DNA of 64,000 nt from Candidatus Aenigmatarchaeota archaeon (GTDB lineage Archaea; Aenigmatarchaeota; Aenigmatarchaeia; GW2011-AR5). Location of the stretch: positions 297,632 to 361,631 of the forward strand of contig JACPDL010000003.1 of NCBI GenBank assembly GCA_016184005.1. The letters run 5' to 3'. Below are positions 11,721 to 14,967 of this stretch, one piece after another (position 1 is the stretch's first letter; each line of letters opens with the position of its first letter). Below the pieces are notes generated by a model that searched no databases, was not told the origin of the DNA, and worked only from the letters and a program-made list of their open reading frames with translations. The position numbers and the translations under genes were made by a program.

Positions 11721-11845
11721 GATTATCCGCAACATTGTTTAAAACTGCTGTCTAAAGACAGCAGTTATTACATAAACAATGTTGGGATGACATGCTCTCA
11801 GAAACCCACGACTTTAGTCGTGGGAGTATTAAGAGCATATCATTT
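11721..11845. repeat. structured two-hairpin element, copy A
   Basis: ~95% identical over 125 nt to 41057-41181; AACATTGTTTA/TAAACAATGTT, CTGCTGTC/GACAGCAG, ATGCTCT/AGAGCAT and CCCACGAC/GTCGTGGG stems. Confidence 0.85.
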
Positions 11846-12086
11846 TAGTTACTTTGACTTCTGTGCCTTCTACTGCATATATCGCCCTGTAATTTCCTAT
11901 GCTGAGACGGTAGAACTGATGCCTTGACATCTTGTGGAGTTTCTTGATGTCGGCCTTTGGCCTTGGCTGGAATGGGTCATTCTCAAGTTCTCTTAACGCG
12001 GCCCTGATTCTGTTTTGTGCTTGTTTATCCAAGCCGTCCAGTTCTTTATCCGCTGTCTTGGACAACCTCACATCAAACTTTGGCAA
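11829..12086 (-). CDS. RelE/ParE-type toxin
   Basis: LSKTADKELDGLDKQAQNRIRAALREL...YRLSIGNYRAIYAVE, RelE fold pattern. Confidence 0.88.
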   Translation of the reverse strand: MPKFDVRLSKTADKELDGLDKQAQNRIRAALRELENDPFQPRPKADIKKLHKMSRHQFYRLSIGNYRAIYAVEGTEVKVTKMICS

Positions 12087-13348: not shown

Positions 13349-13567
13349 TGGGGTCGGAGGGATTTTCGTTGCCTTTGCTTGCTTTCCGCAAGCGCTTTGC
13401 ACGTTTATCGTGTGCAAAGGGCTTTTCGAACCCCCATAGGCAGTTTTGGAGACTGCTGTACTAAATCCCCAAGCTTTTCTGTTTTACACGGTTTTTGAAA
13501 AGCCTGCCAGGTTATACTACGACTTTGCGCAAATTCTTAGTTTGTCCCACATCGTAGGTGCAACCCC
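13349..13567 (-). tRNA. tRNA-Trp(CCA) interrupted by three insertions/introns
   Basis: GGGG..TCG/CGACCCC acceptor, GTAT/GTAC D stem, GCAGT-CTCCAAA-ACTGC anticodon arm, GGGGG-TTCGA..T-CCCTC T arm. Removing ~41, ~43 and ~62 nt leaves exactly 73 nt. Confidence 0.85.
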
Positions 13568-14268
13568 TATTTCCTAAAACCAAAAAGGCTTGAAAAATCA
13601 CCAATGCTTTTCGATTTAATTCTAAATTGCATACCAACCGTAATATTTCCATCTTTGCGTTTATTACCTTTAACGATCCACACTTTAGTTGTTTCGATTT
13701 TATAGCTTAAAAGCATTTTCCTTATTGTGTCTAAAAATTTTTGGCCGTTGTTAATCAACTTCTCATGCTTATGTATTCTAAAGGCGATTTGAACCCTCTT
13801 ATTTTCTTTCCATAAGCTGCCTTCGCATTCAAAAGCTGTTTTAAGATAGTGAAATGAAAATTCTTTGTTTTGTAATATCCAGATAGGAACATCAAATTTC
13901 TTGAGGACTTTATTGCCGGTAGGTACGCCTAACATTTCAAGTATTTTGCCTATGGGTTTACAGCAAATTCTATATTCGTATGAAGTACCGAATGTATTTG
14001 TTTCTACTTTGCGGGTTTTACCTTTTACTCCAAATTGTCTTTCTGCTGCTGTAATAATATCGTTTAGTTTGTCTGTTGTGCCGGCTGTAAAAATAAACAT
14101 CTTGTTGTTGGGCGTCAAATGCCCATCAAAAGTGAGAAAAGATACTATTTTTGCTAAATCAGAATTTAACTCTAGGGGAAATTTCAAATTTAATTTTTCA
14201 ATTGCTTTGTCTGCAAATTTTTGAAGTTTGTATGAACTTCTAAAATCATTTTCCAAAAAATATTGCAT
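13567..14268 (-). CDS. LAGLIDADG-type homing endonuclease-like protein
   Basis: Two LAGLIDADG-like helices (AKIVSFLTFDGHL; FHYLKTAFECEGSLW), LGVPTGNK motif. Confidence 0.8.
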   Translation of the reverse strand: MQYFLENDFRSSYKLQKFADKAIEKLNLKFPLELNSDLAKIVSFLTFDGHLTPNNKMFIFTAGTTDKLNDIITAAERQFGVKGKTRKVETNTFGTSYEYRICCKPIGKILEMLGVPTGNKVLKKFDVPIWILQNKEFSFHYLKTAFECEGSLWKENKRVQIAFRIHKHEKLINNGQKFLDTIRKMLLSYKIETTKVWIVKGNKRKDGNITVGMQFRIKSKSIGDFSSLFGFRK

Positions 14269-14488
14269 TTTAGATTACGTGAAGCATTATTTATAAAGGT
14301 TAACGTAATGCCCCAAATTAAAAGCTGTCATCAGTTTGCTGAATGCGTGCCATTCATTGTAATCTTCTATTGTTAGAAATATCCCTTTAGATTGTAGGCT
14401 CGAAAAAGACTGATGTCCCGTTTATACCATGTTGCGTAGTTTTAAACGTTACAGAAGCTTTAAGTGCTATAGCATTCTATAGACTGCT

Positions 14489-14719
14489 ATGGTAACTACA
14501 ATACAGATAAGCGGGAAACTCCAAGAGAAGCTGAAAAAGAGAAAACTTTACGACAATGAAAGTTACGAAGATATAATCTGGGACTTGCTGGAAGACAACA
14601 TGGAACTTTCTGAAGAGACAAAAAAGAATATTGAAGAATATGAAAAAAACCATGAGAAATGGCTAAAAGAAGGCAAATACAAGACGCTCGAACAGATAAA
14701 GAAGGAAAAAGGTTTATGA
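14489..14719 (+). CDS. RelB/VapB-like antitoxin
   Basis: Small ORF overlapping a RelE-type ORF; TTIQISGKLQEKLKKRKLYDNESYEDII. Confidence 0.82.
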   Translation: MVTTIQISGKLQEKLKKRKLYDNESYEDIIWDLLEDNMELSEETKKNIEEYEKNHEKWLKEGKYKTLEQIKKEKGL

Positions 14720-14967
14720 TGTATAGCATAATCTTTTCTCCTGCGTCTCAAAAACAGTTCGATAAACTTGAAAACCCGATACAAGACCGTATAACATCCA
14801 TATTAGACAGAATACGAAATCGCCCTTATGATTTTATAAAAAGAATTACAGGAAGCCCCTATTTTAAACTTCGTGCGGGAGATTACAGGGTAGTTCTTGA
14901 TGTAAAAAACGACCAACTACTAATCATAGTAATTGAAATCGGTCACAGAAGAAATATTTACAAATAG
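14716..14967 (+). CDS. RelE-type toxin
   Basis: IIFSPASQKQFDKLENPIQDRITSIL...YFKLRAGDYRVVLDV...IVIEIGHRRNIYK. Confidence 0.88.
   Translation: MMYSIIFSPASQKQFDKLENPIQDRITSILDRIRNRPYDFIKRITGSPYFKLRAGDYRVVLDVKNDQLLIIVIEIGHRRNIYK

Follow-up and report, generated by a model that had tools for sequence, protein, structure and literature searches.

A tRNA-Trp gene with three bulge-helix-bulge introns beside a putative LAGLIDADG homing endonuclease gene in a Ca. Aenigmatarchaeota archaeon

Multi-intron tRNA genes have been described in the Thermoproteales, in which a single tRNA contains up to three introns with bulge-helix-bulge (BHB) junctions and the D-loop and positions 3/4 and 59/60 are all recorded as intron sites (PMC4090602, PMC4033280), position 3/4 in some of the tRNAs (PMC4090602). 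Similar introns in different tRNAs were taken as intron transposition (PMC4090602, PMC4033280); an enzyme for this transposition is not named in the literature found. For the Asgard lineages Atabeyarchaeia and Freyarchaeia, introns are reported in 92-95% of the tRNA genes, often non-canonical and in more than half multiple; adjacent homing endonucleases are not mentioned in the part of that report considered here (PMC11291895). LAGLIDADG enzymes encoded by BHB introns are known from archaeal rRNA genes (PMC4496867, PMC6125680). In the cyanophage S-PM2, a gene with an intron has a free-standing endonuclease gene as its neighbour: the gene for the EndoVII-type enzyme F-CphI lies beside psbA, which carries a group I intron without an endonuclease of its own (PMC6083498).

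The tRNA-Trp(CCA) gene analyzed here resembles the Thermoproteales genes in its BHB junctions, its three sites and its number of introns. Its host, however, is a DPANN archaeon (Ca. Aenigmatarchaeota) and not a member of the Thermoproteales, 32 of 32 detected tRNA genes are interrupted compared with about 70%, and a T-loop intron family is present, as is a homing endonuclease gene directly adjoining the tRNA gene. With the rRNA introns it shares the enzyme superfamily and the intron class, but here the endonuclease gene is located outside the short intron, and the tRNA introns that enclose it in two relatives measure 638 and 786 nt. The arrangement is also similar to that of F-CphI, although it is archaeal and combines BHB introns with a LAGLIDADG enzyme and presumed tRNA targets. 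This kind of intron has been described before. New relative to the literature searched are the organisms that carry it and its coupling to a family of homing endonucleases at tRNA ends: nothing relevant on tRNA introns in Aenigmatarchaeota, or on homing endonucleases beside DPANN tRNA genes, was present in the open-access literature (subscription journals were outside the scope).

The window, i.e., the whole stretch of 64,000 nt that was analyzed (G000:C4:297632-361631), belongs to a genome of 919 kb in five contigs, which is 93.9% complete. The tRNA-Trp gene is located on the minus strand (13548-13349) and consists of four exons and three removable introns. Exon 1 (13548-13546) is GGG, nt 1-3 of the tRNA, and is followed by intron 1 (13545-13524, 22 nt) at position 3/4 inside the acceptor stem. 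Exon 2 (13523-13506) reaches from nt 4 to the D-loop, which is interrupted by intron 2 (13505-13466, 40 nt). Exon 3 (13465-13425) contains the intact anticodon loop CTCCAAA with the anticodon CCA. Intron 3 (13424-13363, 62 nt) lies in the T-loop at 59/60, and exon 4 (13362-13349) comprises the 3' strands of the T-stem and the acceptor stem and the discriminator A. All sequence strings quoted in an earlier note on this DNA were found on the minus strand between 13567 and 13349, and the three non-canonical introns proposed there are supported by the spliced product, the BHB motifs, empty sites in relatives and covariation. Its uninterrupted anticodon loop and its 62-nt T-loop insertion are likewise confirmed. 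We consider it very probable that the gene is a functional tRNA-Trp(CCA) gene whose three BHB introns are spliced to give a 76-nt tRNA, that the T-loop intron arrived recently, and that the adjoining LAGLIDADG gene belongs to a family at tRNA ends and may contribute to the spread of the 5' intron.

The LAGLIDADG gene (13567-14268, minus strand) encodes 233 amino acids. The match to the LAGLIDADG_3 profile (E=0.0013) is below the gathering cut-off, and an alignment-profile search matches the intein endonuclease domains in PDB 7qsu/7qss with E=2e-10. Both LAGLIDADG motifs can be recognized, SFLTFDGHL with the invariant D48 and AFECEGSL, in which E/D is found in 4 of 4 aligned members. A homologue is located at the same place in the congener G001 with a dN/dS of 0.19, which points to a homing endonuclease under purifying selection. 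A homologue with 96% identity is recorded for Ca. Aenigmatarchaeota archaeon RIFCSPHIGHO2_01_FULL_AR5_44_11, which places the host among the DPANN archaea. By its sequence, a TATA-box-like element (TTTATAAA, 14290-14297, minus strand) can be recognized about 22-29 nt upstream of the ATG. At the other end, the last base of the stop codon TAG is the first G of a GGGG upstream of the tRNA, and 18 nt separate it from nt 1 of tRNA-Trp. The locus is flanked by two ParE-like toxin genes (window positions 11829-12086 on the minus strand and 14659-14967 on the plus strand; Pfam E about 1e-8).

Relatives of the endonuclease were found with a profile of four members in 97 of 160 genomes across the class, many of them as inteins. 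An end at a tRNA gene boundary, defined as within -100 to +150 nt of an automatically detected tRNA gene, was observed for 29 of 63 free-standing members (21 sense, 8 antisense) compared with 10 of 86 other ORFs (Fisher p = 3e-6); this comparison is rough, since some of the control ORFs are antisense frames and the controls were taken from the same loci, which had been selected for the endonuclease. The tally is a lower bound, because the detector misses tRNAs with introns in the acceptor strand. By eye, about ten further cases were added, among them Trp (two), Phe (three), Leu, two cases inside introns and several antisense tRNAs. Several endonuclease genes terminate in the tRNA's own T8-A9-G10 or in the TAG of its D-loop. 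The latter is also seen for the second LAGLIDADG gene of the host (L066, G000:C3:75029-75748), which overlaps the first 24 nt of a tRNA-Arg gene. Related endonuclease genes were in addition noticed directly upstream of conserved protein genes (L176, L181-L183 and L185, proteasome subunit; L180, ParA/Mrp-like; L225, CTP synthase-like; L190, prenyl synthase-like; names as read from the translations). Short segments seem to interrupt several of these protein genes close to their 5' end and may represent BHB introns in mRNA. In G004, a homing endonuclease ORF (L230) is located inside a 23S rRNA gene.

The LAGLIDADG gene upstream of tRNA-Trp would thus be one member of a family of homing endonucleases that establish themselves at the ends of tRNA genes. 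Such a gene would spread by homing into these ends, possibly carrying a nearby intron with it as in collaborative homing, and it may help to move the 5' intron into intron-free alleles. The evidence that links the endonuclease to intron mobility is positional, and our confidence in this link is moderate. The chances are about even that the introns are functional and spliced while the endonuclease is an unrelated passenger, for which tRNA ends are a safe insertion site. This would agree with G018 and G057, where intron 1 is present next to no endonuclease gene, with the tRNA-Arg gene of G001 (L135), which lacks the endonuclease gene but has the tRNA introns in common with G000, and with one abutted tRNA of 74 nt (L224) that has no intron. 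However, 20 of the 21 abutted sense tRNAs have 87-257 nt, more than a plain class I tRNA. All three tRNA-Phe genes with an abutting endonuclease that were tested contain a perfect BHB intron at 9/10, whereas the tRNA-Phe of G000 has neither an adjacent endonuclease nor the 9/10 intron. Related endonuclease genes also lie inside tRNA introns with good BHB motifs in two genomes, in a tRNA-Leu (L179, G041; 786 nt) and a tRNA-Phe (L213, G102; 638 nt). More generally, collaborative homing could occur in the Aenigmatarchaeia in an archaeal form, in which LAGLIDADG genes at tRNA ends, many of them with a stop codon supplied by the TAG or TAA of the tRNA itself, cut intron-free alleles and co-mobilise themselves and small BHB introns. 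We put this forward tentatively, as a possibility that we would not yet favor. If true, it would provide a mechanism of tRNA intron gain at the DNA level, one that would have related endonuclease genes within tRNA introns as well.

For the determination of the intron boundaries, all candidate junctions were scored for BHB motifs. The junction GATGTGGG^ACAAAC...GCGCAAA^GTCGTAG (^ marks the splice junction; the whole intron is ACAAACTAAGAATTTGCGCAAA) forms a strict BHB with a central helix of 4 bp (TGTG:CGCA), an inner helix of 4 bp (CAAA:TTTG), an outer helix of 6 bp (CTACGA:TCGTAG) and two bulges of 3 nt (GG^A and AA^G). The outer helix is formed by the leader strand CTACGA (13557-13552) and TCGTAG of exon 2. 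A strict BHB of this type at an acceptable junction appeared in 2 of 200,000 shuffles. The earlier note had assigned exon 1 to a GGGG at 13567-13564 with an intron of 41 nt, which gives exactly GGGGTCG. It may be added in its favor that a second GGGGT is found about 14-19 nt upstream of exon 1 not only in G000 (13564-13567) but also in G018 (L022) and G057 (L232). None of the junctions that use this exon, among them the two proposed, however, has more than 2 of the 4 central BHB pairs, and the alternative is strict and covaries. In G057, a member of a different family of the class, the outer helix (CAAGA:TCTTG) and the inner helix (CAGGCA:TGCCTG) have each changed on both strands compared with G000, and in G018 a T.G pair of the central helix is changed to T-A. 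The boundaries with the upstream GGGG are therefore very improbable, and intron 1 is placed at 13545-13524. Splicing at this junction yields GGG^GTCG, which assigns exon 1 to 13548-13546 and places the intron at 3/4, within the acceptor stem, rather than in the "acceptor/8-9 region" assumed before. The strict BHB at this position is conserved in three lineages. The GGGG at 13567 belongs to the leader or the stop codon, and the upstream GGGGT could have remained from a duplication of the 5' end or could pair transiently with the 3' CCCC. A true exon 1 upstream of the endonuclease gene (GGGG near 14315), by which this gene would become intronic, was also considered; with the BHB at 3/4, no such exon is needed. 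One match to intron 1 in G127 apparently lies in coding sequence and was set aside.

The best register for intron 2 is AACCTGGC^...^TTTAGTAC or an equivalent one. It is common to G000, G001, G018 and G008, with one mismatch in G008, and its central helix contains two wobble pairs. The 43 nt proposed previously for the D-loop insertion are thus probably wrong, and the best BHB, which gives 40 nt, results in a longer D-loop in the product. Intron 3 has the central helix TTCG:CGAA and the bulges AA^A and AA^T; its bulges are relaxed and not strict. The predicted spliced 76-mer begins with GGGGTCGTAGTATAACCTGGCTTTAGTAC and is called tRNA-Trp by ARAGORN. The 73 nt that remain when the three segments of the earlier note are deleted are also called tRNA-Trp(cca) by this program, but the mature product predicted here has 76 nt.

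Related genomes serve as natural controls. In G017 the tRNA-Trp gene is a plain gene of 73 nt without any intron, in G008 only the D-loop intron 2 is present, and in G001 and G018 introns 1 and 2 are found together with an uninterrupted T-loop (GGGGGTTCGAATCCC). The gene of G001 therefore represents an exact empty site for intron 3. In G014 a different short intron is located in the D-arm. The introns of tRNA-Trp were gained or lost singly while the exons stayed intact. The same exons recur in relatives, in which none, some or all of the insertions are in place, so that the three insertions are far beyond chance.

Intron 3 is a member of a repeated family. Its seed is present in ten copies in G000 and in seven copies in G001, while the reversed-pattern control gave 0 matches. 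Members of the family interrupt the T-loops of Val, Gly (two), Asn, Trp, Ser, Gln, Arg and other tRNAs. The introns of Trp and Val share 54 identical nt, so that near-identical introns in different tRNAs, from which transposition was deduced in the Thermoproteales, are found in G000 as well. Covariation is observed in the central helix, which is changed from TTCG:CGAA to TTCA:TGAA in tRNA-Ser, and in the inner helix, which is changed from GCC:GGC to GGC:GCC in Gln. In G001 the Trp gene has no copy, whereas another tRNA (L136) has one that is missing at this place in G000; this reversed distribution shows that the mobility is recent. The T-loop intron of tRNA-Trp would accordingly be a recent arrival from a family that is spreading among the tRNA genes of this lineage. 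A repeated intron family is thus caught spreading with a candidate mobility enzyme adjoining, an arrangement that recurs across the class, and the tRNA-Trp locus offers dated presence/absence steps between close species. Taken together, the steps, the family and the adjoining enzyme make the mechanism directly testable. Two further types of repeated introns were noticed in G000. One of them (AAATCCCTTTCTT-hairpin-AAGAAAGGTCTTTG...CCCAAAGAAC) occurs in D-arms and anticodon loops (L007, L008, L073, L077, L080, L123), the other one has the form AGAGGAGAAA...TCTCC..CCTCT. In the tRNA-Asn of G001 (L137, G001:C61), the 3' exon after the T-loop intron seems to be missing, due to an assembly error, a real loss or a split gene.

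That tRNA-Trp is a decayed pseudogene, with its function taken over by another tRNA-Trp, is very unlikely. The three insertions would fit such a decay, in the unspliced window no tRNA was detected by ARAGORN or Rfam, and the incomplete genome could conceal another copy. On the other hand, a second intact tRNA-Trp, which had been named in advance as the finding that would speak for decay, was not found in the 93.9% complete genome, neither with two anticodon-arm patterns nor in the list of detected tRNAs. The anticodon-loop pattern has one further occurrence in G000, apparently in coding sequence and without tRNA surroundings, and the second pattern matches tRNA-Trp and one other site that is no tRNA. 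The exons show no damage, and the acceptor, anticodon and T stems are complete; the BHB helices covary across lineages, and intron-bearing alleles persist in four species. The lack of a second copy in these searches and the covariation lead us to reject the pseudogene and to prefer a functional, spliced tRNA-Trp. In addition, the 32 automatically detected tRNA genes on all contigs of G000 have lengths of 86-354 nt and none has plain length, although the detector would accept uninterrupted genes; it misses those with introns inside the acceptor strand. Interruption is therefore the rule in this genome and no mark of decay. In genomes of this kind, a large part of the tRNA set escapes standard tRNA finders. 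Introns of group I or of another self-splicing class can practically be dismissed: group I introns with homing endonuclease genes do occur in rRNA genes of DPANN archaea (PMC6125680), but no Rfam group I match was obtained in the window, and the introns have only 22-62 nt and BHB junctions.

In the functional reading, the splicing endonuclease of the cell would cut out all three introns and a ligase would join the four exons to the 76-nt tRNA. Only one splicing endonuclease gene was found in G000 (L047, G000:C3:114234-114512; PF01974, E=1.4e-28), whereas most of the broad-specificity enzymes described so far are heteromeric or fused, which speaks against this reading. The predicted enzyme of G000 contains the insertion GVQLKKGPKSAKEHTKW, which corresponds in the alignment to GVIPKKGKRSEREHSKW of N. 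equitans and has no counterpart in M. jannaschii. Loops of this kind near the active site are linked to broad specificity, and the enzymes of N. equitans and ARMAN-2 likewise have a lineage-specific loop at this place that is tied to relaxed BHB cleavage (PMC12397907). In contrast to these two enzymes, only one subunit gene was found here, and the broad specificity is predicted from its sequence. In G010 and G101, the splicing endonuclease gene is located just downstream of an endonuclease-tRNA-Phe pair.
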